A stretch of DNA of 35,320 bases. Source: a virus. Shown here one piece after another: positions 5,707-28,471 of this stretch; the first letter of the stretch is position 1; each line of letters starts with the position of its first letter. Location of the stretch: positions 1 to 35,320 of IMG/VR virus record IMGVR_UViG_3300048548_000315, one strand, 5' to 3'. The position numbers were made by a program, and so were the translations under genes. Below the pieces are notes generated by a model. That model worked only from the letters and a program-made list of their open reading frames with translations, was not told the DNA's origin and searched no databases.

Positions 5707-5981
5707 TTCTTTTTTCTTTTCACAGATTTAACACGACGAGGCTTGCCTGCCGGCTGTCCTAATCTTTTCTTTTCAGCAATTTTTTTACGTTTTTCAACAG
5801 CAGACATTTCGCCAGCTGTTTTAGGCGTGGCTGATGATACACGTTTTTTAGGGCGACAATATGGAGTACCACGCTTTTCACCTTTGCGTCTACCACAAGG
5901 CTTGCCGGTGCGGACATCAATCCATTCTTCTTTAAACCAACGTTTAAGCGATGCGCCTTTTTTTGTTTTGCGTACTGCCAT
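5703..5981 (-). CDS. Small, very basic conserved protein (DUF5872-like)
   Basis: The 92-residue product holds the block SLKRWFKEEWIDVRTGKPCG, followed by RRKGEKRGTPYCRPKKRVSS and TPKTAGEMS, then a Lys/Arg-rich tail. The pattern of a W-[DE]-[DE]-W-hD-x-x-TGKPCGR core with two Cys and RP-K is one I associate with DUF5872-like proteins in cyanophages and large DNA viruses. Its function is unknown. The high charge suggests DNA or RNA binding, perhaps in the virion or near packaging. It lies between the giant virion protein and the lysis genes together with a second small basic Cys-containing protein. Confidence 0.65.
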   Translation of the reverse strand: MAVRKTKKGASLKRWFKEEWIDVRTGKPCGRRKGEKRGTPYCRPKKRVSSATPKTAGEMSAVEKRKKIAEKKRLGQPAGKPRRVKSVKRKKK

Positions 5982-6000: not shown

Positions 6001-6135
6001 TTATTTCTTTTTAGATTTATTTCCCCAGTTTTTTGCGCCCACTTTACGGCATTTAGCTATTGCACCGCTTGCATAAGCAGATGGGAATACACGGTAACGT
6101 GCTTTTACTTTTTTATAACATGCATCTTTAGCCAT
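6001..6135 (-). CDS. 44-aa conserved basic protein (DUF6321-like)
   Basis: This frame starts at ATG (6135) and overlaps the stop of the giant virion protein by one base (TAATG). The product reads MAKDACYKKVKARYRVFPSA, then YASGAIAKCRKVGAKNWGN and a Lys-rich end. The pattern ACYxKVKxRYxVxPSAYASGAxxKCRKVGAxNWGN is, from memory, widespread in marine phages and fits DUF6321-like proteins. Two Cys residues (6 and about 33) in a small basic protein could form a metal site or a disulfide. No role is known to me. It is almost certainly a real gene because the motif is so well kept. Confidence 0.75.
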   Translation of the reverse strand: MAKDACYKKVKARYRVFPSAYASGAIAKCRKVGAKNWGNKSKKK

Positions 6136-9100
6136 TATTCAAATCTTTTTAGTAGTTTCTTTTTTCTTTGCTCTTCTGTTGTTTTTATTTTTTGTGCCGC
6201 TGTAGGTTTTTTAGGTTTTTTAGGTTTTGGAGGCTCAAGCTGCCATTCTGGCCACCCCATAAGTAAAGCTGTTCTTTGCCAAAATTCTCTATCTTGATCT
6301 AGCGAAGAAGATATATTGTCATATTTTAACAATAGCCTGTCCAGCGGAACATTAGTAGCTCCAGATATTATTTGAGCGTTAGCCATATAAAACGGGTTTT
6401 CTATTGTAGGCCCCATTTTTTTCATTTTTTTACTATTAAATTCATAGCTTTTTAATCCACTTTTAATTCTAGTAACTTTTGAATCTATAGGCGGCGATAA
6501 ATCAAGTAAATTCCACGCGGCTTCCGAATATTCCGGTCTTTTCTTTTTTGATTCAGCTTGCAAGCGTAAAACTACATTTTTAACAGTACTAACAGCTGCT
6601 CCTGGTATGCCCATACCTCGTAAAACACTATCACTCATGCCATTTGCAACATCATAAGCTTTATTTTCTATTGATGCGTCAGGATATTCATCTCCATCAA
6701 ATGCTAAAGCAAACAACCCTTTTTGAAGCGTATTAAATATTAAGTTTTGCATAAATGTATAATACGCTAGCTTTGAAAGGTTTTCTTTATCACTGCCTCT
6801 TCTATTGTATAAATCTAATACAGCTTTTTTACTTAAACGCGCATACTGCGAAGGAGTATTAGCGTAAGCTAATATTGTTCGGCCAAGTGTACTTGCTTGC
6901 TCCATAGATATTTTAGAAGGATCTGAAGACTGCTGAGACTCTTCAGTTGCTTTTTGAAAATCTCTAAAAGCCTTGAGTTCAGCCGCCTCAAGTTTCATTC
7001 CTTGCTTTAAATATGTATTAACTCTGTTTCTATAAAACGTAGCACCCCCAGCCGAAATAGCAAAGCTATCTGCAATTTGTGTTGGTAAAAATCCTTTTTT
7101 AAGTAGTTTACTAAAAAACCCTTGTACACCACCTTGCTGGGCTAACTCTGCAATTTGGGCATCTTCAACATTTATTTTTAATCCACCACGTCTATTAATA
7201 AGATAGTCTGAATTAAAAATCGTTTTAAAGTCTTTAGTATACTGCGGAATATTAGTAAAAGCTTTTCCAGCGGCTAAAAGATTATTATCAGACCAATTAA
7301 TATAGTTAGCGGTTGATATTGTTTGTAGCACTGCGGAGCGGCTATTAAAAAACATTGTGGTACCTACAGCACCATTTATCCACTCTTGAAATTTATCAAC
7401 CGTTTTATTACCAGTTAATGATCTATTTCTTCCGCTTTCCATTCGTTTTAAAGAGTTTTCTAAAGCTTCTCTGTAAGATGTGCCGTATGTGGCTTCTAGT
7501 TTATTTAAATTTTCTTTACTAAAAATAATATCTTTATTTTCATTAAATTGTTTTAAATATTTGCTTCTTACGCCTTCGTTGTTTAAAGCTATTAAGTCAC
7601 CAACAATATTTCTAGCTTCCCAATTTTTACCTGGTTTTTGGTATTTACCATCGGTTAAAGTTATAAGCTGATCTGCAAACGCTTGCAACTCAGGCGATGT
7701 TTTAATATAATCTAAAGCGCTTTTTAATTCTGTTTTTGTTAAATCTGGAATATTATATTTTAGTTTATTCCATATATATAACTGCATAACTTGATTACCA
7801 GTAAACCCACCGGCTTCTGGTATAGCTTTTTTAAGCTTTTTAGGCGCAACGTCTAATTGCTTGCCTAGCTGTTTTACACTTTGTAATAGTTTAACTCGGT
7901 TTCTAGAAACAGCATCAACGCCTCTAGTGTAAGGATCTAAAAGGTTTTTCTTATAAAACTCCATCTGCGCTTCACCTTGCGTTCCTTTGCCAAGTGTTCT
8001 ATAAAGTAATCCAACAAAGTCATCTGATTTAGGGCCTATAACTATGTCCCACTTGCCTTTTCCTTTGCCAATTATAGATGCTCTTTTAGCTCCTATTTTT
8101 TGACTACCTTTAAATCCAGTAGCTGGACGAAGTATAAGCTGATTAAATTTTTTATTTAAATCAGTAGACGCAAATTGTTGTTTTATATTATCTACAACTT
8201 CTTGTTGTTTCTTTTTATTAGCGCCAATCAATTGCATTTTACTAGCGCCTTTAAGTTCAGTAGAAGCCATAGAACCAGAATTTTTTGCTATACGCAACTC
8301 TTCATTATAAGCCTTCTGCTCTATTCTACTAGCTGCGGCAAGTTTTTCTAATATTAATTTTCCTGCGACTGTTTTACCATTACCTATATATTCTATGACT
8401 GCATCTTTAATAAATGGTTGATTTATTGTATTTTTAGGTATATTTAATTCTTTAGCAACATTATTAAAATAATAATCTTCTAAAGTTTGTTTACCTTTAC
8501 TTTCAACAGTAACAAATTTATTAAGTTTATCAGAAACAAGTAATAATCTATCAATATTAGAGGTGTTTATTTTACCGCCAATTTTATCCATTATATCCAT
8601 AATATAACGATCTCCAATAATAACGCCCGCATCTTTCATAACTTCAGAGCTTTGTTCTTTCCAAGACTTAGCGGGGTTAGTAATAGCATCAAATGATTCT
8701 AAATTTTGTAGTATCATTGCTTTAAGATGCTCGGTTTTTTTAGGGCCGCCAATACCGGCAGGTTGATATGCTAAAACAGGCATTAGCTGTCTTTCGCCAC
8801 TTATAACATTAGTGTTATATCGTTTTACTCTAGCAACATGCTCAATACGGGCGTTTTTAGAAGTAACATCTGGAGCGTCATTTATAAATTGCTCTAAAGA
8901 TTGCTGGATAGCATCGTAAATTTTTACTCTTGTTTTGTTATTAATGCTTTCAAAGGCGTCAGCAACAACCGCAGCCGCTTGTTTACCTTTTCCGTTTACT
9001 TGAAGCTTGTCTGCTCTTTTTAAAGCACTTTGTAATTTATTTATATCTTTAATTTCAAGGCCGCTAAGTTCTTGCCAACTTTTATGAGTGTTTTTGCCTA

Positions 9101-12100
9101 AATTATTTTTACTATTATCAAAAACTCTAGTATAATCTGGCGTGCCTTTTATTTTTTCTCCGTTTTCATTTATTCTTTCGCTTATTTTTTTAGCGCTCAT
9201 TCCTTCACCATTATTTTTATAATGTAAAGACATAAATCCTTTTATTAATTGTGGATCTAGTTCTTTAGGAAAATATTTTATAAGCTCTTTAGATTGTTCT
9301 AAATATTGATTAGCAATAGTTTCATTTATTATTTTTTTATCTACCCTTTTATTTTTTATAGTTTGTTTTTGAATAAAATCAGGGTTAATAATATAATCTA
9401 CTTTATGATTATCTAAAATATCTTTTATACTGTTTGTAAAAAAGCTTTTAGTTCCAACATCAGATTGTATTACTTCAATTACTTTTTGTTTTAAATAATC
9501 TTTATCAAATTTGTTTAATCTAGTTGACGCAAGCACTTCTGATTTACCGTCAGCAATACGTTGGATTGTTTTAGGCTCTATACCCTCAATTTGGCGAATA
9601 GTATAGTTTGTTATAGCTTTACCAATAGCGTCTTCTAAAGTACGTTGCAGTGATTCTGCTTGGTTACGTGTTTGTTTTTGCCCTTTATTAATACCAAAAG
9701 TATCTAACCATAATTGTTTGTTAAACGGAAGCTTTGTTCTTTCTATAAGCCCCGCTGCTGTTCCAGCTGCTTTTGAAACACGTTCTTTTTCTTGTGTTAC
9801 TCTACCTAGTTCAGTTTCTGGATAAAATACTTTTAAACCTGTTTTAGCAATACCCGTAGCTGATTTTGTTCTTGTAACAGCTTGCTTCATTGCTGGTTCT
9901 GGCAACAATGCGTACAAGCCTTCCGCTTCGTTTCTTAAAAACTGCACACGGTTTTTAGGTTTGCCAAATAATTTTTTAATAGATTTTTTAGCTAAGTTAG
10001 GTATGTTGCCATAATTTAAGTTTTCAAAATCTAAACTTTTAGCCCCATCAAGTATTTCAGCTTCGATTGCATCTTTAATTTCTTTTGGTATTTCAGTATT
10101 TTTACCTAAAATAAATCCTTTAGCCTCTTGCTGCCCTTGAAATGGCGTTCTAGCTTCAAATTGTCTATCGGTGGCTCTACCACTTGATATTTCAACGTCA
10201 ACCTCTGTGGCTTCAATGCCTTTAGCTTCAGTAACATCAGCTTCAAATAAGTCTTCGCGACCAGCTTTTCTTTGCCCTACTACTTCAAATGCAGTAGGTG
10301 TTCTTTTCGGTAAATTAGCTCTTAAGTATGCTCCGAATTCGCCTTTTTCTGCAGAATATGTTTTAATTAAATCTGAAAAGTTTTTAAGTATTTCGCCTTC
10401 AAATAATGTTTTATCACCGCCTAGCTTTGGATCAAATCTATTTATTTCTTTTTGAATTATAGCTTGGTTATCTTTAAGCAAATTACTTTCAGCGCTTTGT
10501 AACAATGCAGATTTATGCTTCGATACATCTAATATAGGATCGCCTTTTTTGTCTTTTAAAATATTACCTTGAGCATCTTTAACAAAATCTTGATTAGCTT
10601 TTGCCCGTTCTTCAGCTAGAGGTAACTCTCTTTTTATTATGTCGGTGTTTTTAGCGTTGCTTTCTGCAATCTTAATGTTTTTATCAAGCCTATCTAATTC
10701 TTTTTTAATTTCAGCAATACGAGCAACATTAGCGTCTATTTTTTCTTTAGGCCCTTTTGTTTTAGCTAATTTTTTTTGGGCTTCAATAATTTTAGCCCGC
10801 TCAGCAATAAGGTTAGATTTTTCTAATTGTAGATCTCTAGATGCAACAGTTTCTGTTGTTGGTACAACTCTATCAATAAGTTCATTAAATCTTTCCGCTT
10901 GTTTAGCCGCACTTTTACCGCCTTCTATATTAAGATTCCATCTGCCTAAAAAGTCAATAAGGTCTTGCTCTGTTTTTATTTTAGGTTTATGCTTTAATCT
11001 TTTTTCAGTAAAGTTTTGAATACGAAGTTTTAAATCTTTAAAAGCATTTTGAGAAACAAAATCTGTATAATATTCAGGCTTAGACAAATACTCGGCAGTA
11101 TATCCAAATAGTTCTTCTTGAAATTTTTCTGCTGTTATATTTTTATCTTGTTTAATAGCTTCTAATAAAGATCTACCATCATTAAGTTTCATTTTGCCAG
11201 CAATGCTTTCGAGCATGCCTAGTATTTCTGCTTTAAACTCCGGTCTTCCTTTAAATAACGAGTTCCACGCCATATGAGTACCTTCGTGCGGAAGTACTCC
11301 CATTTCAGCTTTATTTTTATTTATAATAAGCCTATTATTGCTTTTGTCTACATTCGCTTTATCTTTTTCAGAAAGCATAGTGGAAGAATCTTCTACAACT
11401 TCAATTTCAAATTTTTTACCGCCAGCTTCTTCCAAAGTTTTATTAATAGCGTCTGTTTCTTTTTTTATAGCTTTTTTAGCTTTTTCTTTTGTAGAATAAC
11501 TGTCTAATAGATTAGCTTGTTCTTTATAAGCGTCAATTTCAATTATTAGCTCTGCATGCTTTTGAGCGTCTTGTTCATTACCTTTAGCAGCAGCTTCATA
11601 AAATTTATTTTGAGCCTCTCTGTAAAGCTTATTTATTTCTTGAGTAGTTTTAATATCTTTAGACTTCAAATGCGTTACACCAAGCCCCATACCCATTATA
11701 ACATTATGCAATACTCTTTTGCCTACTTCGCTATAATCTCCATAATTTTCATTTATATAAGTTTGGTAAGACTCTACATTTTGCACATCTCTAACCAATG
11801 CTTCCAGATTTCCAGCGGCTTCACTAGCTATTGGAAAACTAACCCCACCCATTAATACTTTATTAATAAATGTATTTAGTTGATTATATTTTGAAGATAT
11901 TTTTAAAGGTGATAAAGCTTTGCCGGCAACAGCAAAACCTACACCTGATCCTGTGTCAAACCCAACTATTTGTGTTTTTGTTTCTTCAAGCCCAGCTAAA
12001 ATGCCAAGTGATTTAGCTTTGTCAACAAATCGTTTGCTTTTTTGCAGTTTATTTAAATAACCGCCCAATTTAGTTAATCCAGTAATAGCTGATTGCCCTT

Positions 12101-13778
12101 TGTTTAAAAAAGCAAATTCGGCGAGTATAGGGACCATGCCACCTGCTCCATAAGACACATCTTCGCCAAATGACATTTTAGTTGCTTTTTTTTGCTTTTC
12201 TGTTAAAGTTATACCTGCGTCTTCGGCAATAGTATTAACTTGATTTAATACTTCTAATCCAGCAATTTTATGGTGTTGTTTTATATCTTTATCGATAGGT
12301 AAAGCATCTATAATACCTTTTCCAAACGCCCAACCTCTGTTTATTGCTTCCGGTGATTTATTTAATAAGTAAACTTGTTTAAAAGCCTCTCTTCTTGCTT
12401 TTATATCAAAGCCGTCATTAGTATACCTAACAAGTGTATTTGCATATTCTTTTGCGCTGCCGTCATGTTGAATTTTACCATTTTCAATTTTAACAGGTTG
12501 TATAGCGTCAAATTCAATAGGGCTATTCCCTTTAGTGAACAAGCTGTCATTATCTAAAATAACAGAATATTTAGATATAACATTTAAGGGGACGTCTCTA
12601 TATAACAAGCGGCCTTTGTCTTTACCGTTTGTTAGCATTGTAGATTCAAAGCCCTGTTCTTGCAAACGATTTTGTACTAGTTGATTATCTATAAGGTAAT
12701 TTGAAGTTTCGTTGCCCTCTCTTATATAAGCAGCTGTTTCTAAATTAAAATCTTCGTAAGCTTGCTTTAATAAATCTTTATCAGTGTATGTTTCTAGCTG
12801 GGCTACGCTAGATTTATACAAATCTGTTAAATCTAAGCCATTTTTTTTATCAGCTTCTTCTTTACCGATAATCATATTAGTGGACGGGTCTATAAATAAA
12901 CCTTCTTTTTTTATAAAAATCCCCCTATTTAATATTTTATCTAATTCTTGCCTTGCAGCTAATTTATTTTCGTCAGTAGCGTTAGGATCGGCTAATAAAC
13001 TTTCTAATTCTGATTGGCGAAGGTCAACTTTAGAAATTGAAGCTCTATCAATATCTTCGTATTTTTTAGATAGTATGCTTGGATCAATGCCTAATTCTTC
13101 AGCTTTTGCTAATTCGCTGCTAATTCTATTTTGTTTAATTTCTGCCTGGCGTTTTTGTACTTCTTCTTGAAATGTAAGTTTAAGTATTGCGTCAAAATCG
13201 GCATCTTTCAATGCATCGTATTGCATTTTTCGCGGAGATCCTATTAAATTTTGCGGTATATTTTTATATACAGCCGTGCCGTCAGATTTTATATATTTTA
13301 GTTCTTTTTGTTTTGAAGGCCCTTCAAGCGCTTTATTAATTTGTTTACGTAGTGTTTTGGGTAAGTTGCCATCGTTTTCATCAAATATTGTTATTAAATT
13401 ATTTGATCCGGCATATGTTGTTAAAACTTCGTTATCACCAAATACATTATTAAGAATAAAGTTTTTATACTCTAAAGCTTGATCTTGTTTTTTCTTTTTT
13501 GGATCAATATCAATTTGTGATGATTCCAATAAAGAATCTTCCAATGCTGATTCCCCATCTTGCTGCATTTGGTTTACCGGCCCTACAGGTGCAGCTTCCT
13601 CCGCAGGACCCATTTCCTTTTTTACATTTTTCAAAAATGGATCTGTATCTATAGGATCTGTTTTAAATTCTAAACCTTCTTTTTGATTTACATAATCTTC
13701 AATAGAAAGTCCGTTAACTTCAGCGGCTTCAATTACAAAAGCTTCGTTAATTGGTTGCCCGTTAAAAATGTAAGACAT
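6135..13778 (-). CDS. Giant internal virion / DNA ejection protein with zincin-like motif (T7 gp16 position)
   Basis: A single frame encodes 2547 residues. It follows two smaller ejection-type genes in the order of T7 genes 14-15-16, so it probably enters the host with the DNA. HEGTH at 831-835, preceded by RLIINKNKAEMGVLP, has the HExxH form of zinc metallopeptidases; T7 gp16 instead carries a transglycosylase. Hydrophobic or Gly-rich patches occur near residues 540-560, 610-660 and 2140-2160, and coiled-coil-like stretches near 1000-1070. The C-terminal quarter (about 2140-2360, including ADSFAISAGGATFYRNRV) resembles helical domains shared by large polyvalent phage proteins. The tail is Lys/Pro-rich. 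The start MSYIFNGQPINEAFVIEAAE looks like N-termini of large virion proteins in related phages. A virion RNA polymerase was considered, but no polymerase motif was seen. Confidence 0.75.
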   Translation of the reverse strand: MSYIFNGQPINEAFVIEAAEVNGLSIEDYVNQKEGLEFKTDPIDTDPFLKNVKKEMGPAEEAAPVGPVNQMQQDGESALEDSLLESSQIDIDPKKKKQDQALEYKNFILNNVFGDNEVLTTYAGSNNLITIFDENDGNLPKTLRKQINKALEGPSKQKELKYIKSDGTAVYKNIPQNLIGSPRKMQYDALKDADFDAILKLTFQEEVQKRQAEIKQNRISSELAKAEELGIDPSILSKKYEDIDRASISKVDLRQSELESLLADPNATDENKLAARQELDKILNRGIFIKKEGLFIDPSTNMIIGKEEADKKNGLDLTDLYKSSVAQLETYTDKDLLKQAYEDFNLETAAYIREGNETSNYLIDNQLVQNRLQEQGFESTMLTNGKDKGRLLYRDVPLNVISKYSVILDNDSLFTKGNSPIEFDAIQPVKIENGKIQHDGSAKEYANTLVRYTNDGFDIKARREAFKQVYLLNKSPEAINRGWAFGKGIIDALPIDKDIKQHHKIAGLEVLNQVNTIAEDAGITLTEKQKKATKMSFGEDVSYGAGGMVPILAEFAFLNKGQSAITGLTKLGGYLNKLQKSKRFVDKAKSLGILAGLEETKTQIVGFDTGSGVGFAVAGKALSPLKISSKYNQLNTFINKVLMGGVSFPIASEAAGNLEALVRDVQNVESYQTYINENYGDYSEVGKRVLHNVIMGMGLGVTHLKSKDIKTTQEINKLYREAQNKFYEAAAKGNEQDAQKHAELIIEIDAYKEQANLLDSYSTKEKAKKAIKKETDAINKTLEEAGGKKFEIEVVEDSSTMLSEKDKANVDKSNNRLIINKNKAEMGVLPHEGTHMAWNSLFKGRPEFKAEILGMLESIAGKMKLNDGRSLLEAIKQDKNITAEKFQEELFGYTAEYLSKPEYYTDFVSQNAFKDLKLRIQNFTEKRLKHKPKIKTEQDLIDFLGRWNLNIEGGKSAAKQAERFNELIDRVVPTTETVASRDLQLEKSNLIAERAKIIEAQKKLAKTKGPKEKIDANVARIAEIKKELDRLDKNIKIAESNAKNTDIIKRELPLAEERAKANQDFVKDAQGNILKDKKGDPILDVSKHKSALLQSAESNLLKDNQAIIQKEINRFDPKLGGDKTLFEGEILKNFSDLIKTYSAEKGEFGAYLRANLPKRTPTAFEVVGQRKAGREDLFEADVTEAKGIEATEVDVEISSGRATDRQFEARTPFQGQQEAKGFILGKNTEIPKEIKDAIEAEILDGAKSLDFENLNYGNIPNLAKKSIKKLFGKPKNRVQFLRNEAEGLYALLPEPAMKQAVTRTKSATGIAKTGLKVFYPETELGRVTQEKERVSKAAGTAAGLIERTKLPFNKQLWLDTFGINKGQKQTRNQAESLQRTLEDAIGKAITNYTIRQIEGIEPKTIQRIADGKSEVLASTRLNKFDKDYLKQKVIEVIQSDVGTKSFFTNSIKDILDNHKVDYIINPDFIQKQTIKNKRVDKKIINETIANQYLEQSKELIKYFPKELDPQLIKGFMSLHYKNNGEGMSAKKISERINENGEKIKGTPDYTRVFDNSKNNLGKNTHKSWQELSGLEIKDINKLQSALKRADKLQVNGKGKQAAAVVADAFESINNKTRVKIYDAIQQSLEQFINDAPDVTSKNARIEHVARVKRYNTNVISGERQLMPVLAYQPAGIGGPKKTEHLKAMILQNLESFDAITNPAKSWKEQSSEVMKDAGVIIGDRYIMDIMDKIGGKINTSNIDRLLLVSDKLNKFVTVESKGKQTLEDYYFNNVAKELNIPKNTINQPFIKDAVIEYIGNGKTVAGKLILEKLAAASRIEQKAYNEELRIAKNSGSMASTELKGASKMQLIGANKKKQQEVVDNIKQQFASTDLNKKFNQLILRPATGFKGSQKIGAKRASIIGKGKGKWDIVIGPKSDDFVGLLYRTLGKGTQGEAQMEFYKKNLLDPYTRGVDAVSRNRVKLLQSVKQLGKQLDVAPKKLKKAIPEAGGFTGNQVMQLYIWNKLKYNIPDLTKTELKSALDYIKTSPELQAFADQLITLTDGKYQKPGKNWEARNIVGDLIALNNEGVRSKYLKQFNENKDIIFSKENLNKLEATYGTSYREALENSLKRMESGRNRSLTGNKTVDKFQEWINGAVGTTMFFNSRSAVLQTISTANYINWSDNNLLAAGKAFTNIPQYTKDFKTIFNSDYLINRRGGLKINVEDAQIAELAQQGGVQGFFSKLLKKGFLPTQIADSFAISAGGATFYRNRVNTYLKQGMKLEAAELKAFRDFQKATEESQQSSDPSKISMEQASTLGRTILAYANTPSQYARLSKKAVLDLYNRRGSDKENLSKLAYYTFMQNLIFNTLQKGLFALAFDGDEYPDASIENKAYDVANGMSDSVLRGMGIPGAAVSTVKNVVLRLQAESKKKRPEYSEAAWNLLDLSPPIDSKVTRIKSGLKSYEFNSKKMKKMGPTIENPFYMANAQIISGATNVPLDRLLLKYDNISSSLDQDREFWQRTALLMGWPEWQLEPPKPKKPKKPTAAQKIKTTEEQRKKKLLKRFE

Positions 13779-13798: not shown

Positions 13799-15136
13799 TT
13801 ATTGTAGCAATAATGGATTTGTTCTACTTTCTTCTTCGGTAGGTGCAGTAGGCTCGGTTGGAGCGTTTATATTAAATGTTGGAAGCTCGGTATAATCAAC
13901 ACCCTCTCGTAAATTTGTTTCATCATAAAATTTTTGAATTGAATTTTGAGGGTTTGATAAATTTATTACAGGCGGAATATAATCTGGGTCAGTTATTCTT
14001 GCTTTATCCCGCAATTTAAAAATACCTCTTTTCAAATCTACAGGGACAATATCTTGACCTATAAGTGTTACTAAATTATCAAAAGCACTAGCTTTTAAAT
14101 TTTTATTATTAAAAGCGCTAATTGCGTTTTTAAAAACATTATCTATACGGTTTTTATTTGCTTTATTTTGATTTCTTTTATCAATTTGGGCTTGTGTAAG
14201 CGTGCCTCCCCTCGTGGCTGGAGCTTTATATAACGCCGCGCCCTGTTTGCTTGCGTCTATATAATTATCCATTAATTTTTTTTGAACAAAAGCTTTTAAT
14301 TCATTTCCCTCTAAAGTAAATAATTGTTCTTTTTCTTCTGGAGTTGATAAAAACAAAGGCTTGCCATTTACAAAACCATCAACACCAGCGCTGCGTAATT
14401 CTTCATCACTAAAATTATTTAATACATCACCTAAAGCAATACTTTCGGTAATGTATTCTTCGCTACCCTCTGTCATTACTCTACCTGTTCTTATAGCTTT
14501 TTCTTTAATAGTGCCTAGTTTAGGGGCATATGATTTGGCAAGCGGATAATTTGGCATTGCAAAATCATCAAGCTGCTCTTGCGTGTATTCGTTGCCAGTG
14601 GCTGATACATAAGTTATATTGCCTTTTCCGTCGTCTTTTATATTAAACCTACCGTGCAGCAATATTGCGTCTAAGTCTTGCACTTTACGCCCGTCCATTG
14701 CGGTAGTAAGTTCTTTTTCTTTTCTAACCTGAGCATACTGTTTTGCAATATTATTATAAGCTAAAGCGTTTTTATTAAGCCGATCAAAAGAAGCGCGTAT
14801 AGAATTTATTTGAGTAGTAAGCTCATTATACCGGGCATCTAAAGGGCTTAAGTTTTTTCTTTCTTGTATTAGCTTTGCGGCTTTAACTTTAGAATTTTGT
14901 AAAGTATTAGTAAGGGTATTTCTTACTGACTCAACTTCGAATAAGCTAGGATCATAATCATCGCCAATAGTGTTTAACACAGCGGCAATTTCTTCGTCTG
15001 CTTTTCTGCGATCAGCTTGAATTTTTTGTACTATCCCAAGCCCCGTTTGTAATCCTTTGCTTACAGCGCCTGCTATATCTGGCTGTGCTCCACCGCTGAT
15101 CTGCCCTATTTTAAAAAAATCAATTCCTTTTGCCAT
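13799..15136 (-). CDS. Internal virion protein, T7 gp15 position
   Basis: The 445-residue product is hydrophilic and mostly helical, with long charged stretches (IQADRRKADEEIAAVLNTIG; KNRIDNVFKNAISAFNNKN). It has no signal peptide, membrane helix or enzyme motif. It lies between the Ala/Gln-rich gp14-like gene (2-base gap) and the giant protein gene (20-base gap). By position and length this matches the middle component of a podovirus ejection apparatus, which forms a periplasmic tube in T7. Sequence similarity to gp15 cannot be seen, so the call rests on gene order. The C-terminus is rich in Thr, Pro and Glu. Confidence 0.55.
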   Translation of the reverse strand: MAKGIDFFKIGQISGGAQPDIAGAVSKGLQTGLGIVQKIQADRRKADEEIAAVLNTIGDDYDPSLFEVESVRNTLTNTLQNSKVKAAKLIQERKNLSPLDARYNELTTQINSIRASFDRLNKNALAYNNIAKQYAQVRKEKELTTAMDGRKVQDLDAILLHGRFNIKDDGKGNITYVSATGNEYTQEQLDDFAMPNYPLAKSYAPKLGTIKEKAIRTGRVMTEGSEEYITESIALGDVLNNFSDEELRSAGVDGFVNGKPLFLSTPEEKEQLFTLEGNELKAFVQKKLMDNYIDASKQGAALYKAPATRGGTLTQAQIDKRNQNKANKNRIDNVFKNAISAFNNKNLKASAFDNLVTLIGQDIVPVDLKRGIFKLRDKARITDPDYIPPVINLSNPQNSIQKFYDETNLREGVDYTELPTFNINAPTEPTAPTEEESRTNPLLLQ

Positions 15137-15138
15137 GT

Positions 15139-15936
15139 TTAAAATCCTTTTAATGGGTCTTTAGATAAATTAGAAAAATTGTTGCCTAACCCTGCTCTTA
15201 TACCAAAAAGCTTTGAACCTGTTAAATCTAAGTTATTAGTAAACTGTTGTCCGGCTGTGGGAATTCCAGCTTGATCTAATAACGACGGTGGAGTTGTTCC
15301 AATATTACCACCGCTAGCTCCTCCATCATAGCCTTCTTTAAAAGCACCACCAACTGCCATTGCTCCAATGCCAGCTACTCCGCCTATCAATGATTCTGTA
15401 GCACGTTGCCTAGCGGCATCAGCAGCTTGCTTTCTTCCAGCAGCCATTTGTAATAAATTACCTGATTTCATCATTTCCATTTGTTGTGATCTAGCTTCGC
15501 CCGCTGCTCTTAGTTGTTGCATACGTTGTTCGCCTTGTGCCGCTAACATTTGATTGCGTTGTTCTTGCTGGCCTATACTTGCTGATGCCGCTTGAGCCGC
15601 TTGTGTTTGTTGGTTAGCTAAGCTTTGTGCTAGTGCAGCAATACCACCCCCACCAGCTGATACCGCTAAATTACTTAAAATATCAGCACGACCTTGCTCA
15701 GCCTGCTGTTGCGCAAACTGTGCTGCCTGTGTATTTACTGTAAGATCTTCAAATGTGTTTGTTACGTTTGCATAAGGATTAGACGTATCTAAAGCCTGAT
15801 AGCGGCTTTTCATTTGATTAAATTCAGCTTGAGCAGCGCGCTGTTCACGTCTTCTTGCTCTGCCCCCAATAATTCCTTGGGCGATGCCTCCTAAACCCTG
15901 GGCTAACCCGCCTATAGCTGCTAATGGTAGTGCCAT
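15139..15936 (-). CDS. Internal virion protein, T7 gp14-like
   Basis: This 265-residue protein starts with a Gly/Ala/Leu hydrophobic segment (LPLAAIGGLAQGLGGIAQGI), then Arg-rich GRARRREQRAA, then a very Gln/Ala-rich helical middle (AAQFAQQQAEQGRADILSNL; QRMQQLRAAGEARSQQMEMM) and a second hydrophobic Gly/Ala helix near residues 184-200 (GGVAGIGAMAVGGAF). T7 gp14 has the same build: a hydrophobic start, Ala/Gln helices and a second hydrophobic stretch, and it forms the outer-membrane pore of the ejection channel. The function is inferred from this architecture and from gene order. It follows the nozzle-like gene with a 39-base gap. Confidence 0.65.
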   Translation of the reverse strand: MALPLAAIGGLAQGLGGIAQGIIGGRARRREQRAAQAEFNQMKSRYQALDTSNPYANVTNTFEDLTVNTQAAQFAQQQAEQGRADILSNLAVSAGGGGIAALAQSLANQQTQAAQAASASIGQQEQRNQMLAAQGEQRMQQLRAAGEARSQQMEMMKSGNLLQMAAGRKQAADAARQRATESLIGGVAGIGAMAVGGAFKEGYDGGASGGNIGTTPPSLLDQAGIPTAGQQFTNNLDLTGSKLFGIRAGLGNNFSNLSKDPLKGF

Positions 15937-15975: not shown

Positions 15976-18900
15976 TTAACTACTTAACGATACTTCACTT
16001 CCAACGGAGTAAAGCTCTTTTTTGTCAGTACTGTTATGTGATAGCTTAACTTGTAAAAAATAGCCCAACACACCTGATGTATTAAACTTATTATTTTTTG
16101 CAAAGAAATTAAATGCATTTGTTGGCGCACCATCTAAAGTTATAGTTTTACCTGAAATACCAGTAACAGTTCTTCCGGTATCATTTGAATTATTGTATAC
16201 TACATCACCAACTTGCAGCGCATTATTCAATTCAGAAAAAGTTGCATTATTACCCAATATATTTGTGGGTGTGCCTAAGCCCTGCACATTTAATGCTTTT
16301 AAATCTAAGCTTGATTTTGTAGTATTATTAATTCCTTGAATATAATTATAAAATACGCCTTCTTTTTCAACAAAAGATAGTACTGTACCACGGTCTGTAT
16401 TTGTTGTAACACCCGCCGCAGTTGCGTCCCAGCCGCTATCGCCTTGATAGTTTAATGTTCTAAAGTTTTTAATATTACCTGGGTTACCGTTTAAAAACGA
16501 TGTTACTTCCGATGTATAAGCGTACCCATAAAAAGTATTTCTAGTTTCGTTATCATGTGAAAATATTTTACCATCTTTAAATGTGTAGTACATGTTATTA
16601 AGGCTTATACCCGCTTCGGGAATAAACGATTTTCTACTAGGCCAGCCATTCACGCTTTCAGAAAATGAAATGGTACCAGAGGTAGATATAAAATCTGTTA
16701 CAAAACTTACATTGTATTGATCTTTATTTTCATCATAAGACCCAACAATTCTATTATAGCTTGAAGAAAGCTTATCTTTAAAATAATCTTTCATGCCATA
16801 GTTAGATATTTCAGTAATGCCGTCGCCGCTTAATCTTAACACCTTGCCTCTTGTTTTATCTATAAAATAAGCTCTATAAATGTGATCTGCAAAACTTTCA
16901 GGGTGTTGGCAGCCATAATTACCTTGGTAAGGTATAATAGTGCCTATAAATCTATCGCTTGACAATACCTGGGGATTGCCATCTGCTTGGAATAATAAAT
17001 CTTTTCTAATTGGTGCTTTTAATATTTTATCATCACATAAAAGTGTTAAATCAGTATCACGCGTATTTAGTTTTTGAATATTACCGTATACAGGATTAAT
17101 TTCTTCTGTTATATTTTCAGCTATAATAAACTGATTTAATCTATTAACACCGTTTTTTCTATTATATAAGCCTGAAAATATTAAACCGTTTTTAACTCTT
17201 TCTTCTTTATATTCCTCTTCAAATGTAGTAGAAACTTTAGGCCCTTTGTCTATATATATTGCGTTATAATCATCTCTAATTCTATTAGATTCTACGCCGT
17301 TGTTAAATGTAAAAGAATTAAACCATTTTAAATTATTAAAACTGCCATGGCTAGATATAGGCCACGTTTCTTGCGTTTCATAATAAAGTTCTAATAAACT
17401 TTCTTCTGGAAATGTTTCAAATATTGGCGGCTTTTTTTCTTTGGTTAAATCAAATTGTTCTTTATCTTCAATTATTTCCATTTCAATACTATCTCTTAAA
17501 GAATAGCCGTTGTTTTGGTCTCCTTCCTGAAAAGGCAAATCTTTTACAAACTCTTTATCAAAATTAAGATAAAATCTATCTATTTGTGGGTTTGATCCAA
17601 CTTGCTCTTCGATGCGCATATCTGTAATAGTATATATTTCATCTTCTACAGCAGTTAATGTTAATGTAGCATCTTCGTTACCACCAGAAACAACAACTAC
17701 ATCACCTGTTTTATATCCTGCGCCGGCATTATCTCCAATTGTAACAGAGGTTATAACATTGTTTGTAACCGTTGTATTTACTGTCAAACCGCTTCCGTTG
17801 CCTCCGCTAACAGAAACATTTGTGTTTGAAGAATAGCCAGTCCCTCCGTTTTGTATTGTTACAGTATTTACCCCCATAAACGCCTGCTCTTTAGCAAAAT
17901 TAGCGGAAACTGCTTGGTAGTCTTTAAATCTAACTTTAGCACCAACTTTTATACTATCTCTAAAAGCATACTCATTTCCGCCAAACTCAACACTGACTGC
18001 GTGGTGTCCTAGCGTAAGCGCCCATGTAACCGACTCATAAACATCCGCGCCTCCTTGCGTATCTGGAATAGTATTATCGGGAGTACCCGCTTTTCCGCCG
18101 CTTATAATATACCATTTGCCTTGGGCATCATTAGCTATATAATAAGCTGTACGTAATGTAGTAGCATCCGCTATAGCTTGCTCAGATTCAGATTGTAAAT
18201 AACTATTTAATATTGCATTTTGTTGTACTTTAGCAAAAAACAAACCATCAAATTTAGACGCAATATTATTTTCTGAAAAAAATCCTACACTAATATTAGG
18301 TTTTAAAATATAATCATCTAAAGAAACATAGTAAGTAGAGTCCGCTCCTCTATATTCATATAAAAAATCAATATCATCCGTAAAAGGCTCATCTAAAGTA
18401 ATTTCTATATGTTTTCTTTGATCATTAAATCCTGTATAATATAAAAAATTAGCTTCTTTTGTAGAAGAAATTTTATAATATTTTGTTTTAGCATTTCCAA
18501 TGCTAAACTGGACATATATACTATTATTAATTGAAGTTATTTGTTCCGTGGAAAGCCCTTCGCCTGAATAATCTGCTGTTGGAGCTGTATCGCCGTTTTC
18601 CCAAAACGATCCTGGAACTTTTTTACTTCCGGCTAAAACAAATTGTTTTGAACCTTTCGCGGGGGAACCGCCGGCTTGCTGCACTAAAAGAGGGTTATTG
18701 TCTTCTGTAGCTGGCGAAAATGCAACAGAATTTATATTTAATTCTGTAATTTTTTCTTTTGCAATTTCATCAGGCGCTTCGGTTTCAATACTAGCAACTT
18801 TATTTTTTTCAAATTCTGTAACAATAGTATTATTAAAACCTTTTTTCATTACAAGAAAATCACCTGCCTGTATTTTGTTTACTTCAGCGGAAGGAAAAGA

Positions 18901-20562
18901 TAAATAATAAAAACCATTATCAGTTTTAAACGCGCCTGCTAATGCTAAATTATAATATTCATTTGAGTTTTCTTTTATAAAATATCTATAGTGCGTTGCC
19001 CAAGATGGTGCTGTACTAGTTATTTTTGCTTTAAATTGAGATGGATTAAACAATGAAGTTAAATTCCCCCCACCGCCATATGGCACATCAAAAACTCCAG
19101 TTTTGTCTGTTAGTACAGGCGTTTGTCTCTGATATTCATCTAAATATACAACACCAAATTCGTATGTTCTTTTACTTTTTATAGATTGTTTTGCTTCAGA
19201 AGCGCCGCTTCTATCTATAAGGTTTATTTCAAATACAGGTTTAGTAACATCAAAATTTTGAACATAATTACCAAATATTAATCTATTGCCAGAAAGCTCT
19301 AAAGCTTTTGCTTTTTTAGGTATACTATCAAAAGCTCTTAATAATTGATTAGACGGTATAATTTCGCCTTTAATTTCTTTTTCAAAGCTAAATTCTGTTT
19401 CAGTTGTAAGTTCTGCTATCTTATAAATATTGGGGCTATTACTATATTTAAATAGTATTTCAACTTCTATTACATCAACCGGTTTTGTATCAAAAGTATT
19501 TAATGTTATTTTTTGCAATGTATTTTCCATTGCTAAATTAAACCCTTTTAAAGTATTATATTTAAAATTCCCAGGTATAAAAGCGGTTTCTGAAAATGGC
19601 GATATTAATGAATATTGTGTTATGCCATTTATTTCATATTTCCATCTATAAGCAAATCTAACAAAATTAAATTCATAAAGTATAGGCTCTTCAATTAAAG
19701 AATGTTTATAGACTACGCGCTCATCTGTAAAATCCCCTACAATAGATACTATTTCGTACGTATAAGAAGTTGAGCTTACTGCTGTTAATTCAGCAATTGC
19801 AAATGCGTCATAATCTTCATTATGTATTTTAATTTTATTTCCTACTACCCATCCGCTTGGAGATGTAAGATCATAAGAAGATGAATTCCCCTGCCACATT
19901 TGAGTTATTACATCCCCTACTTTTAATGGCTGATCACCTGCTATAAAAGGATTTTTATCTACATAATTTACAGGTATACCGTTATTATATGTTTTTAATC
20001 CATTAGATTTAGTATTTTTCAATACTAAATTAGGAGCATTAATAGGCGATTTTTTAATTAATGATATTCTATCAGCAGAAAGATTTGTACTAGTTGTAAA
20101 ATCCGTCGCGGTTACGCCTCTCCAATATTCTATATCAACTTGTTTTGGTTCATTTAAATCATCTGTAAAATACAAAATACCGTCAAGCACCGCTACGCCT
20201 GTAATAAGATTTGAAGTGCTAAAATTAAGTATTGAGCCTGTGTCGCATAAAATAATATCTACACTATTATCAGATGGATTAAGTTCAGCAATGTAGTCGG
20301 CTGTTGCCGATGTTCCAAACCAATATACTTTATCGTTTTCAGTATCACGTACAGTGCCTATACAAGTTGCGTCTGACGGAAAAGTAAGCCCGCCAACTCT
20401 TTCTGTATTACCTAAAATATTTTGCAGCGCACCTACATCAGAGCCTTCTGAGTAAGATACGCTAACATTCAAAGCATCTCTATATTCACCTTGAGGAACT
20501 AATCTTTCATCAAGGTCTTTATTCATTTTGCCTTTGATGAACAGGTTTTTTAATTCTGGCAT
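15976..20562 (-). CDS. Large tail nozzle / tail tubular protein B-like structural protein
   Basis: The 1528-residue protein begins MPELKNLFIKGKMNKDLDER and continues with LVPQGEYRDALNVSVS and EGSDVGALQNILGN. This N-terminal pattern is one I recall from nozzle/stabilisation-type proteins of Bacteroidota podoviruses, and its logic is like T7 gp12 (a start that fixes the protein to the adaptor, then a propeller). Propeller-like strands follow (KVYWFG, YIAELNP, ILYFTDDLNEPKQVDI, RAYFIDKTRGKVLRLSGDG). An inserted Gly-rich repeat unit lies near residues 900-975 (GGTGYSSNTNVSVSGGNGSG, then GAGYKTGDVVVVSGGN), of the kind found in phage baseplate and fibre proteins. Position after the two connector genes supports a tail role. 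It is much longer than T7 gp12. Confidence 0.65.
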   Translation of the reverse strand: MPELKNLFIKGKMNKDLDERLVPQGEYRDALNVSVSYSEGSDVGALQNILGNTERVGGLTFPSDATCIGTVRDTENDKVYWFGTSATADYIAELNPSDNSVDIILCDTGSILNFSTSNLITGVAVLDGILYFTDDLNEPKQVDIEYWRGVTATDFTTSTNLSADRISLIKKSPINAPNLVLKNTKSNGLKTYNNGIPVNYVDKNPFIAGDQPLKVGDVITQMWQGNSSSYDLTSPSGWVVGNKIKIHNEDYDAFAIAELTAVSSTSYTYEIVSIVGDFTDERVVYKHSLIEEPILYEFNFVRFAYRWKYEINGITQYSLISPFSETAFIPGNFKYNTLKGFNLAMENTLQKITLNTFDTKPVDVIEVEILFKYSNSPNIYKIAELTTETEFSFEKEIKGEIIPSNQLLRAFDSIPKKAKALELSGNRLIFGNYVQNFDVTKPVFEINLIDRSGASEAKQSIKSKRTYEFGVVYLDEYQRQTPVLTDKTGVFDVPYGGGGNLTSLFNPSQFKAKITSTAPSWATHYRYFIKENSNEYYNLALAGAFKTDNGFYYLSFPSAEVNKIQAGDFLVMKKGFNNTIVTEFEKNKVASIETEAPDEIAKEKITELNINSVAFSPATEDNNPLLVQQAGGSPAKGSKQFVLAGSKKVPGSFWENGDTAPTADYSGEGLSTEQITSINNSIYVQFSIGNAKTKYYKISSTKEANFLYYTGFNDQRKHIEITLDEPFTDDIDFLYEYRGADSTYYVSLDDYILKPNISVGFFSENNIASKFDGLFFAKVQQNAILNSYLQSESEQAIADATTLRTAYYIANDAQGKWYIISGGKAGTPDNTIPDTQGGADVYESVTWALTLGHHAVSVEFGGNEYAFRDSIKVGAKVRFKDYQAVSANFAKEQAFMGVNTVTIQNGGTGYSSNTNVSVSGGNGSGLTVNTTVTNNVITSVTIGDNAGAGYKTGDVVVVSGGNEDATLTLTAVEDEIYTITDMRIEEQVGSNPQIDRFYLNFDKEFVKDLPFQEGDQNNGYSLRDSIEMEIIEDKEQFDLTKEKKPPIFETFPEESLLELYYETQETWPISSHGSFNNLKWFNSFTFNNGVESNRIRDDYNAIYIDKGPKVSTTFEEEYKEERVKNGLIFSGLYNRKNGVNRLNQFIIAENITEEINPVYGNIQKLNTRDTDLTLLCDDKILKAPIRKDLLFQADGNPQVLSSDRFIGTIIPYQGNYGCQHPESFADHIYRAYFIDKTRGKVLRLSGDGITEISNYGMKDYFKDKLSSSYNRIVGSYDENKDQYNVSFVTDFISTSGTISFSESVNGWPSRKSFIPEAGISLNNMYYTFKDGKIFSHDNETRNTFYGYAYTSEVTSFLNGNPGNIKNFRTLNYQGDSGWDATAAGVTTNTDRGTVLSFVEKEGVFYNYIQGINNTTKSSLDLKALNVQGLGTPTNILGNNATFSELNNALQVGDVVYNNSNDTGRTVTGISGKTITLDGAPTNAFNFFAKNNKFNTSGVLGYFLQVKLSHNSTDKKELYSVGSEVSLSS

Positions 20563-23334: not shown

Positions 23335-24780
23335 TTATGCTTTGAATAATACAAAGTTATTAGCTGCTTGTGTAACCAAACATCTTTCAGATAAGTAATG
23401 TACTTCCATCGCATCAAGATCGCTAGTAGCAGCACCACCAACAGATCCAGTAATCCAAGACTTCATACGACGATCATCTGCTTCAGAAGCTTTGTAACGT
23501 ACGTGTAAGAATGGACGACGAATGTTTTTACCTAAAATTTGATCGTACACAGAAGACGTACCAGCAGGAACTAATACTCCTTCAATATCAGCAAATAAAC
23601 CTCTTGTAGACTTATTGTTAAGGTATTTCCAGTCAGTTTTGTAGAAGTCATAAGATCCTCTGCGGAAACCTCTAAACCCTAGGTTTAAAGCCATATCTTC
23701 GCTATTTTCAAATACACCGAATGCAGTACCGCCAGCAGAACCAGCAGAAATTTCAGCTAGACCATCATCCATAACTAGATTAGCATTTCTGTTTAAGAAA
23801 AGCATGTTTTCTTCAATAGCTCCTTGCTTATCAAGTTCTTTTAAGATAAGATCGAAATCTGAAATTACGTCAGCTTTATCATCAAATGCATCAGCCGCAA
23901 CGTGACCTCTTGCTGTAATAGCTGCAAAAAGCCCTTCAGTGCCTGCTGTGTCATCAGTTGCAGCAGTTCCTAAAATAGAATCTACACCACCTGTTGCTTT
24001 AGCAAATTCTGCTTCAACCATTGCGGTTTCAAGATAGTCTTCAAAACGAACGCGAGTATCGCCTTCAGCTTTTAAATACCATAAGTAACCTGATTGACCA
24101 CCTTCACCAGATACTTCTACCCAACCAATTTGAGAAGCATCAGATCCTGAAACTTCAAATTTATCTTTTAAGATAATTGGTTTGTTAGTAAAAGATTGGA
24201 ATTCAGGAGTAACAGAACCAGACATTCCCAATTCACCCTTTTTAAATTCAGAACCATAAACAAAGAAAGTACAAGTATTAGCTGCGTTATCATCAGTAGT
24301 TAAAAAATTTGATACAGCGCCTACAGTTGCTCCTCCAGAATAAGGAATTGCAGTAAGAGTTGTATTATCAGAAGCTACCGCGCTAACATAAGCTTTAATA
24401 ATTGTTGGAGTAGCGTCATTATCAGAAAGCACAATAGTTTGACCAACGCGTACTGCGTGGGTTCCACTATTTGCAATTGTAATCACACCAGCGTTATCAA
24501 TTGCCGCCCCTTCGTAAGCTAAGTGAAGACGCCCTTGCTCAGACCAAATAACTTGATCAGAAGCCATAGGCATTTCTGCACCTACCATACGTAAGAAAGA
24601 TGCGATTGAACGATTACCGTAACGCTCTACTTCTTGTTCGTAAAGCTCAGGTAGATATTGTTGAGACCAGTTTGCACCGCTAGCCCCGTGGAAGTTAAGG
24701 TAGTTTCCAGTTGTTACTGTCTTACTTGCATAAGGAGTAAACTCAGTTGGAACGCCACCAGTAAAATTTACATTTGCCAT
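23335..24780 (-). CDS. Major capsid protein (HK97-fold type)
   Basis: The 481-residue protein begins MANVNFTGGVPTEFTPYASK. It contains QYLPELYEQEVERYGNRSIA followed by SFLRMVGAEMPMASDQVIWS, a block I associate with capsid proteins of crAss-like and similar Bacteroidota phages. A small inserted domain lies near residues 105-190 (VRVGQTIVLSDND and on). C-terminal features include YDQILGKNIRRPFLHVRY and AMEVHYLSERCLVTQAANN, typical of the strand region at the end of HK97-type shells. Its base use is richer in G and C than its neighbours, as expected for a highly expressed gene. It follows the scaffold gene by 12 bases and has a terminator behind it. Confidence 0.88.
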   Translation of the reverse strand: MANVNFTGGVPTEFTPYASKTVTTGNYLNFHGASGANWSQQYLPELYEQEVERYGNRSIASFLRMVGAEMPMASDQVIWSEQGRLHLAYEGAAIDNAGVITIANSGTHAVRVGQTIVLSDNDATPTIIKAYVSAVASDNTTLTAIPYSGGATVGAVSNFLTTDDNAANTCTFFVYGSEFKKGELGMSGSVTPEFQSFTNKPIILKDKFEVSGSDASQIGWVEVSGEGGQSGYLWYLKAEGDTRVRFEDYLETAMVEAEFAKATGGVDSILGTAATDDTAGTEGLFAAITARGHVAADAFDDKADVISDFDLILKELDKQGAIEENMLFLNRNANLVMDDGLAEISAGSAGGTAFGVFENSEDMALNLGFRGFRRGSYDFYKTDWKYLNNKSTRGLFADIEGVLVPAGTSSVYDQILGKNIRRPFLHVRYKASEADDRRMKSWITGSVGGAATSDLDAMEVHYLSERCLVTQAANNFVLFKA

Positions 24781-26047: not shown

Positions 26048-28471
26048 TTACCTAGGTTCGAAAGAACCTAAGTCAAAATCACCACTAAGTATATCATTAC
26101 CTGCTGATTCGAATGATTTAGGTGGTAAATTATTTTTTCTTTGATTAATTAGCTCGCTTTGTTGGGATGCTTGTAATTTTGTACGATCATCTTTGCGATC
26201 TTCTTTTTCTTTAATTGTTTGTTTCTGCACATCAACTTCCATGCCTTTTAGCTGCATGTTCATTTGAAACTCAAGATTCATTAAATCTTTCTTAAGTTGT
26301 GCTTCTTGCATTAAGCGTTGCATATCAAGCTGAGACTCTATTTGTTTTAACTCTGCTTTCTGAGCGGTTAGCGCTTGCTGTTTTTGCACTTCTGCCTGCG
26401 CTGCCACTTGCTGAGTTTGCGCATTTGCCTGTGCTTGCATTTGAATATTCTGTTGTTGCATTGCTTGGTCACGCTCTAATTTTTTACGTCTGCGTATTTT
26501 AAGCATTTGATTTGCTAACTGAATATTTTTAATTTCCCGAAGATCAATAGCATCTTCTAAATCAATAAGCCCTGCAGACAATGCAGTTTGAATATTGTTT
26601 TCAAGTTTTTGTTGCTCTTCTTCGTCTGGCATTAAATCAATAAATATGCCAAAATCGTGAATGTGCAACTCTGATAGTTCAGCCAAAGTTGCTACATTAT
26701 GTACGCCGATAGATTGTATGAATGCTTCACGCGCCGGTGAATATTCTATAACGTCTGAAACGCGTAGTGATATTTTTTCTGCAGTTTCCGCTGCTAAGAA
26801 CAATCCTGCATTTAGTATGTGTCTTGTGGCGGTATTTGAATTTGCTGCTGCAATTTTTTGTATTCCAACTAGTGCTCTACTATCCGGAGTACTACCGTCA
26901 CGAGCCTCATTTAGCCCGGTTGCATCTCGCATCATTTGTAAATAGTAATTGTATGTACTAATCAATGATGAAATTTTATTGCCCCCAGAGCCAGCTGATA
27001 TTTGTTGAATAGGAACTTTGCCCGGATTCATATCGCCTTCTGAAGTAAATGATCTACCAATTACAGAACCTGTTTGGAAAAACATATTTAACGCTTCTTG
27101 CGGGCTATAATTTGTTCCATTACCTAAATCTATTTCTGCCAGACCGTCGGCGTCTAAATAAACACCGTCTGGAACGATTTTAGATAATACCTGTTGAAGT
27201 TTTAAATGGGTTAGCTGAATCATATCAGCAAAACCTGTAATTCTGCTTACTAATGATTCGATACGACCTTGGTACATACGTGGCGCTACTATTGAGTAAT
27301 TCATTTTTACTTTATTAGCATCACTTTTTGGGCGCATCATATTTTCACAAAGCTCCCATTTTAATAACATATTAGCACCTGGGACATATACTCCTTCGTA
27401 TAATACTTCAATATTTGTAGCTATTCTTTCAAACCTTGCCCTTGGATCTTTAGGAGGATTAAATGAATCATCTTTTTTAATTGCTTTTTTAGCTCCGGTT
27501 CCTGTTTCTTTTATTTTATAAACTTCATTGTGAAAAGTTTTATAATTAAAATACAGCACATCTACCGTGTTAGAATCTTCTTTTTTAGCTATAGGGTTAT
27601 GCCTATTATATATTCTATAATTTGAATACCCTTCGGAAGAAAGTTTTTCTAATTGTTCATTTGTAATATTTGGAAATTCTTTCTTTAATTCATTAATTGG
27701 TATTGTTTTAATTTCGCCAATATAATATATATCGTCATAATATGGCGATTCTGTGTATGAATGCACAATATTAGCCGGGTCTACATAATCAATTTTTATA
27801 CCTTCTGAATTATTATATGTAGTTTTTACTGCAGCAGTACCTAAAACAGCAAGATCATAATATAATTGCTTTTTAGTTAATTCATATCTATTCTTATTTA
27901 GAATAACATTTATTGCTTCTTCTTCCGCAATTTCAATAGCTTGTTTATAGTTAAGCTGCATATGTAATTGCAACTCTTCTTCATTTTCAGGAAGTTCAGC
28001 CATATTACTTTCCTGAAGGTTTATACCAAAATTAGCTTGCGCAAAATCGTTAAGCTCTTTTGTTTGCATATCTCTAAGTATACCTTCCATATACTCAGTG
28101 CGTTTGTTAACACCAAAAGGATCTTGCGAATATGCCTTAATATCATAAGTACGATTAGCCATGCCATTCACTACAATATCTACAAACTTAGGTATAATTG
28201 GAACAGGTTTCCAATCAAGATTAAGATAAGACATATCGCCATTGATAGACAGCTCATCTTTATATTTTTGAACAGATTGCTCGCCTCGAGCATATAGGCG
28301 CAAATTGTGGTAAGCATTTTGGTTTACATAAAATCTGTTTGTAGCTGCGTCTCTTTTAAACCATTCGTTTTCAATAGCACGCGCTATTTCAAGACCATAT
28401 TCTGGACTTGCTTTTTCTACATCGCTAACTGTTTGGCTAGGAAAATAACTTTTTACAACTGACTCAGCCAT
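26048..28471 (-). CDS. Portal protein
   Basis: The 807-residue protein lies directly between the large terminase and scaffold genes and overlaps the terminase gene by 8 bases. It has the layout of portals: a mixed wing region (ELTKKQLYYDLAVLGTAAVK; YVDPANIVHSYTESPYYDDI), a clip/stem region (SLVSRITGFADMIQLTHLKL; VLSKIVPDGVYLDADGLAEI; TYNYYLQMMRDATGLNEARD) and a long Gln/Lys-rich coiled-coil C-terminus (MQQQNIQMQAQANAQTQQVA onward). The MMRDATGLNEARDG part is very typical of podovirus portals of this group. It forms the dodecameric DNA entry ring at one vertex. Confidence 0.85.
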   Translation of the reverse strand: MAESVVKSYFPSQTVSDVEKASPEYGLEIARAIENEWFKRDAATNRFYVNQNAYHNLRLYARGEQSVQKYKDELSINGDMSYLNLDWKPVPIIPKFVDIVVNGMANRTYDIKAYSQDPFGVNKRTEYMEGILRDMQTKELNDFAQANFGINLQESNMAELPENEEELQLHMQLNYKQAIEIAEEEAINVILNKNRYELTKKQLYYDLAVLGTAAVKTTYNNSEGIKIDYVDPANIVHSYTESPYYDDIYYIGEIKTIPINELKKEFPNITNEQLEKLSSEGYSNYRIYNRHNPIAKKEDSNTVDVLYFNYKTFHNEVYKIKETGTGAKKAIKKDDSFNPPKDPRARFERIATNIEVLYEGVYVPGANMLLKWELCENMMRPKSDANKVKMNYSIVAPRMYQGRIESLVSRITGFADMIQLTHLKLQQVLSKIVPDGVYLDADGLAEIDLGNGTNYSPQEALNMFFQTGSVIGRSFTSEGDMNPGKVPIQQISAGSGGNKISSLISTYNYYLQMMRDATGLNEARDGSTPDSRALVGIQKIAAANSNTATRHILNAGLFLAAETAEKISLRVSDVIEYSPAREAFIQSIGVHNVATLAELSELHIHDFGIFIDLMPDEEEQQKLENNIQTALSAGLIDLEDAIDLREIKNIQLANQMLKIRRRKKLERDQAMQQQNIQMQAQANAQTQQVAAQAEVQKQQALTAQKAELKQIESQLDMQRLMQEAQLKKDLMNLEFQMNMQLKGMEVDVQKQTIKEKEDRKDDRTKLQASQQSELINQRKNNLPPKSFESAGNDILSGDFDLGSFEPR

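Follow-up and report, generated by a model that had tools for sequence, protein, structure and literature searches.

The largest gene in the window, as we call the whole 35,320-base stretch of viral DNA analysed here (an IMG/VR virus record), probably codes for the largest protein of an ejection cassette with three members, a polyvalent virion protein with a zincin domain that would act after ejection. The firmest part of this reading is the fold: on computational evidence, residues ~755-964 are very likely to form a zincin metallopeptidase domain, with H831, H835 and E889 as the predicted metal ligands and E832 as the predicted general base. It is also highly likely that the protein is packed in the head and then threaded down the short tail to reach the cell together with the DNA or before it. 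The domain would bind zinc and carry out catalysis, and is likely to be an active enzyme. An earlier examination of the letters and open reading frames (the sequence-only reading) had described the gene as an ejection-type protein with a zincin-like motif. The open reading frame of 2547 aa at 6135..13778 is indeed present, has an ATG start and is the largest in the window; it lies on the minus strand, which had been left unstated.

The phage, a marine one, is placed near Cellulophaga phi38:1, Elemovirus and ctfjg026. Judged by the identity of the large terminase subunit, the closest annotated records are ctfjg026 (64%) and the Flavobacterium elemo phages (45%), together with Cellulophaga phi38:1/Calle of the family Pervagoviridae, and the carrier of the giant gene is best explained as an uncultured flavobacterial-type podovirus. 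Three cysteine-free genes follow the tail "muzzle" gene, and the giant gene closes the series (Table 1); it is encoded in the virion cassette and adjoins the tail genes, a position by which ejection proteins are recognised. The "T7 gp16 place" given to it by the sequence-only reading thus holds in the sense that the virion genes end with it, the tail gene and two smaller genes coming before. The last virion gene is also giant in phi38:1 (gp101, 1691 aa), elemo (Elemovirus gp18, 3694 aa) and ctfjg026 (UOF82488, 3859 aa), and the first two products are annotated as "structural", the phi38:1 labels being based on similarity to phi18:1. A parallel order is seen in N4, where the succession of giant, mid-size, small and tail genes, then capsid and then portal genes, corresponds to gp50, gp51, gp52, gp53, gp56 and gp59, respectively, and gp50-52 are described as ejected proteins (PMC12633501). 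Homology of the 445- and 265-aa genes to N4 gp51 and gp52 was looked for and not found.

Some other features of the window can be mentioned. The crAss muzzle domain (PF25729) of the tail protein links this phage group to the tail architecture of Crassvirales. Downstream of the giant gene lies a gene for a small, very basic DUF5872 protein (5703-5981, minus strand), and the small (1379-2347) and large (2643-4409) subunits of ribonucleotide reductase are encoded on the plus strand, opposite to the virion genes. A MAM-like domain match (PF00629, E 4e-8) was found at 32402-33157 on the minus strand, beside a Peptidase_S74 tail-fibre-like protein.

Table 1. Virion genes of the window and features of the giant protein (window coordinates)
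Feature	Position	Strand	Basis
Terminase large subunit	28464..30683	-	PHROG 6681, E=1e-162; places phage near phi38:1/Elemovirus/ctfjg026
Portal protein	26048..28471	-	PHROG 6547, E=1e-150
Probable major capsid protein	23335..24780	-	PHROG 13704 "virion structural protein"; phi38:1 gp93 position; role inferred from gene order
Tail protein, 1528 aa, with crAss muzzle C-terminal domain	15976..20562	-	PF25729, E=5.9e-7; PHROG 14478, E=6e-128
265-aa gene, 0 Cys, first of putative ejection trio	15139..15936	-	N4 gp52 / phi38:1 gp99 position
445-aa gene, 0 Cys, second of putative ejection trio	13799..15136	-	N4 gp51 / phi38:1 gp100 position
Giant ejection-type virion protein, 2547 aa, 0 Cys	6135..13778	-	ORF with ATG start; homologues
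Weakly hydrophobic, Gly-rich segments, residues 540-655, just upstream of zincin	11814..12161	-	Hydropathy peaks at 540, 604 and 637
Predicted zincin (MPTase) domain, about residues 755-964	10886..11515	-	AlphaFold2 model and alignments
HEGTH, residues 831-835, predicted two His ligands and catalytic Glu	11274..11288	-	Sequence, alignments
E889, predicted third zinc ligand, in QEELFGYTAEYL	11112..11114	-	Invariant in alignments; shuffle control; aligns with N4 NEFMAW
Conserved all-helical C-terminal domain, residues 1860-2547, family signature	6138..8201	-	Homologues; AlphaFold2

HEGTH was confirmed at the residues given by the sequence-only reading, preceded by RLIINKNKAEMGVLP. It is the sole HExxH in the 2547-aa protein, in which His makes up only 0.6% of the residues and the composition gives an expectation of 0.007 such motifs per protein. 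Scans of the giant protein (P0001) against Pfam, PHROGs and PADLOC gave no usable match, tblastn of P0001 against annotated phages gave none, and direct queries of IMG/VR with P0001 returned no relatives. Relatives were instead reached by walking from terminase matches to the giant open reading frames on the same contigs. An alignment of their C-terminal domain then revealed at least 588 stretches in IMG/VR that encode the family (confirmed by tblastn), and yet Pfam and PHROGs assign no function to it. Eighty loci were kept from these stretches; they contain 78 giant open reading frames with the domain, two of them truncated, of which 67 carry a single HExxH and one carries a pair.

When syntenic and homologous giant proteins are pooled, HExxH is found in 83 of 92, nearly always exactly once and in the same mid-protein region. 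The remaining nine have QExxH (three; L107, L128 and L202), EExxH (five; EELFH in L135, L137, L141, L142 and L147) or HExxxH (one; HEMVGH in L134), and in all of them the motif Glu is retained along with the second His and a downstream Glu. The shorter syntenic gp101 of phi38:1 was found to have no HExxH. Loss of the motif in close homologues had been named beforehand as an observation that would speak against a zincin, and such loss was encountered in part: the first His is replaced by Gln or Glu in 8 of the 92 proteins and the spacing is altered in one, the motif being retained in the rest. These first-His changes and the HExxxH form show that the canonical zincin chemistry is dispensable in some members, and since the first His is lost in two groups, a non-catalytic role is conceivable for the members concerned.

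Alignments of the zincin region, containing 70 and then 69 sequences with a mean identity of 16%, have only four invariant columns: H831, E832, H835 and E889. The rows had been chosen by the first three of these residues, and E889 played no part in the selection. When the downstream residues were shuffled and realigned six times, an invariant column after the motif appeared 0 times, which rules out an alignment artefact as the source of the invariant Glu. It lies 54 residues past H835, in the expected second helix and within the 20-70 residues after HEGTH where a third ligand had been anticipated. The AlphaFold2 model of residues 711-981 (pLDDT 81.4, pTM 0.74) has, in model numbering, a helix followed by strands 81-85, 98-101 and 106-110, the HExxH helix 118-131 and the Glu helix 173-189. 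This is the order of elements described for the core of polyvalent MPTases, in which an N-terminal helix and a three-stranded sheet come first and HExxH and Glu are carried by the two helices at the C-terminal end (Iyer et al., 2017; PMC5512222).

In a Foldseek search of BFVD the zincin model matched giant viral proteins with a probability of 1.00, including a structural protein of Flavobacterium elemoC, and, at somewhat lower probability, proteins labelled "large polyvalent protein associated domain". The fold search of PDB with the same model gave nothing significant (best E 0.95), MATCAP, IrrE, selecase and M61 zincins being among the weak matches, and sequence searches of PDB with the zincin and C-terminal profiles gave nothing credible. 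No curated Pfam model for a zincin matches P0001, and weak M78, SprT-like and DUF5700 matches occur in some relatives; Pfam coverage is not in itself a defining feature of the polyvalent MPTase domain. Comparison by hhalign with the zincins of 13 N4-like vRNAPs resulted in a probability of 87% (E 4.5e-6), in a register that puts HEGTH on N4 HELVH and E889 on the Glu of NEFMAW, and controls as well as all other regions of the giant protein compared with N4 stayed below 4%. The zincin fold proposed around HEGTH is thereby supported by the invariant E889, the order of the modelled core and the match to the N4 zincin profile. A hidden virion RNA polymerase was considered and rejected: P0001 has no DxDxD-type motif, and the hhalign probability was below 1% for all regions tested.

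The C-terminal domain is 38-51% identical in nearly all relatives (residues 1860-2540 of P0001 mostly 38-48%). Its AlphaFold2 model (pLDDT 76.6) is all helical and has fold matches with a probability of 1.00 and E values from about 1e-5 to 1e-12, several of the targets being labelled ART-PolyVal, MuF or LPD. Several targets, such as A0A516M5M8 and A0A218ML07, were found with the zincin model and again with the C-terminal one. Because of these labels and shared targets the giant protein can be regarded as polyvalent by fold, and the suggested likeness to polyvalent phage proteins is borne out by the N4 zincin profile as well; in Pfam the C-terminal family has no annotation and no curated polyvalent domain was matched. 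Homology of the domain to N4 C2 was looked for and not found. The zincin is located between the variable N-terminal half and the conserved C-terminal domain, and about a dozen relatives can be aligned over residues 451-963, the zincin included. In the same pairs of proteins the zincin is 28% identical and the C-terminus 54%, meaning that the zincin diverges faster. Between the two domains, some giants that are otherwise more diverged share segments with 71-77% identity (protein coordinates 1314-1533 in L171 and 1260-1476 in L180; 1136-1622 in L135 and 1210-1704 in L150), suggesting possible module exchange as judged from the sequences.

P0001 has no cysteines, about 26 being expected from codon-position base composition. 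The 92 giants together contain 15 Cys in 242,686 residues and 84 of them have none, compared with 0.70% Cys in other open reading frames of 300-1200 aa in the same loci. Nine of the 15 belong to the extreme C-terminal tails of two proteins, L102 (residues 3234-3291) and L104 (residues 2394-2415), in which a Cys occurs every ~10-15 residues at the end of an otherwise Cys-free giant; another two are residue 2 of reading frames read from the previous stop and probably precede the start codon. Both smaller genes of the trio are Cys-free, and so are 88 homologues of the 265-aa gene (18,965 residues). The same is true of N4 gp50 (3342 residues), gp51 and gp52, and their relatives in twelve N4-like phages have 0 Cys in 50,472 residues versus 0.74% in replication genes. 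T7 gp15 and gp16 as well as P22 gp7, gp20 and gp16 have none, T7 gp14 has one, and the content is also low in the cargo proteins of crAss001 (7 in 7478 residues). No sequence similarity was detected between the ejection systems that share this exclusion. Cys is also absent from some virion proteins that are not ejected (N4 gp56 and gp57, P22 gp26), and the exclusion is supportive of ejection, not diagnostic. We found it mentioned in neither the ejection-protein review nor the N4 and DEV papers, although it may be noted elsewhere. Injection with the DNA, as proposed in the sequence-only reading, is supported indirectly by the synteny of the ejection cassette, the "structural" labels of the syntenic proteins and a Cys exclusion like that of proven ejected proteins.

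As the giant member of the cassette, the protein would be kept in the head, leave it by way of the short tail and enter the cell before the DNA or along with it. Packaging or anchoring is probably the task of the conserved helical C-terminal domain, and the hydrophobic stretch may contact the membrane, residues 540-655 being the candidate part. A protease delivered in this way might, as originally proposed, open the envelope or disarm host proteins. Cleavage of a host protein by the injected peptidase, after ejection and not during assembly, is the most likely single role, if held only tentatively. Action after entry is favoured because the N4 vRNAP, which retains the zincin, is according to Iyer et al. 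packaged uncleaved (PMC5512222), and because the zincin diverges faster than the C-terminus. Such fast divergence fits a changing target; it also fits a co-evolving site of self-cleavage or plain relaxed constraint.

Together with host-protein cleavage, self-processing is a leading option and a close second, possible but somewhat doubtful. The zincin would then free domains by cutting the giant polypeptide, or else the two proteins that accompany it, inside the head or during entry. Autoprocessing has been named as a likely role of polyvalent MPTases, with the cleaved DdrB of P1 as the cited case (Iyer et al., 2017; PMC5512222), and both the place of the zincin between a variable half and a conserved domain and its rapid divergence would suit a cut site evolving along with it. 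The uncleaved state of the packaged N4 vRNAP, the clearest relative by profile, argues against this, as does the persistence of QExxH and EExxH members with an otherwise similar architecture. That the first His has been exchanged in two groups, with the other ligands unchanged, would be easier to understand if the domain were a metal-stabilised or degenerate fold serving packaging, refolding or partner binding. In N4 the C1 domain is within the C-terminal region needed for encapsidation, the CTD is called autoinhibitory, and the available text on N4 was found to describe no proteolysis. However, the Glu of HExxH, which is not needed for holding the metal, is kept in 92 of 92 proteins including the variants, and the full motif persists in 83 despite 16% identity, and we consider a non-catalytic domain unlikely.

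An enzyme for opening the envelope appears still less probable. It would cut peptidoglycan cross-links or an envelope protein at entry, replacing the transglycosylase of T7 gp16; the giant protein must cross peptidoglycan, occupies the gp16 position and, in agreement with the sequence-only reading, has no lysozyme or transglycosylase domain found by Pfam or PHROGs. By profile and fold, however, the domain is closest to polyvalent MPTases and not to M23, M15 or other wall peptidases, and the phage encodes a separate M15 endolysin (4746-5207). That HEGTH is a chance motif could be argued from the missing significant PDB and Pfam matches, but the chance is practically nil: conservation of HExxH in the same mid-protein region of so many giants refutes it, as do the third ligand, the fold and the profile match.

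Placement among ejected polyvalent proteins with a zincin turns the largest gene of these flavobacterial-type phages from one without assigned function into one with a concrete hypothesis, and Cys exclusion could be a simple way to spot ejected proteins from sequence alone. Taken jointly, and speculatively, the data might point to a large unrecognised marine-phage family of injected metallopeptidases that hit host proteins within the first few minutes of an infection and with fast-evolving specificity, including lineages in which the first ligand is replaced and the other catalytic residues are kept, and to a near-absolute Cys exclusion as a general, sequence-readable mark of tail-ejected proteins; this combined reading is rather doubtful.

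Among the known systems, T7 gp16 and P22 gp16 are likewise large, ejected, Cys-free proteins encoded last in a three-gene cassette, but T7 gp16 carries a transglycosylase (endolysin) domain. The N4 vRNAP gp50 of Schitoviridae shares the place in the gene order, the layout of the three-gene cassette, the zincin ligands in register with its C1 domain and the lack of Cys; in contrast to it, the giant protein is devoid of an RNA polymerase region, shows no detectable likeness to either the RNAP or the C2 part of N4, and has its zincin in the first half, far from the C-terminus. The syntenic proteins of phi38:1, Elemovirus and ctfjg026 differ in that the C-terminal domain is undetectable in them by sequence; the elemo giant has a HEIFH zincin (HMM E 9e-35) and that of ctfjg026 two HEFGH motifs. 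With the polyvalent MPTase proteins (PMC5512222) the giant protein has in common the giant multidomain organization, the MPTase core and the C-terminal fold of ART-PolyVal/MuF/LPD proteins, whereas its family has no curated Pfam polyvalent match and some of its members carry QExxH or EExxH. Giant multi-domain phage proteins of this sort are already known; the present one adds a well-supported new family to them and does not amount to a novel type of system.
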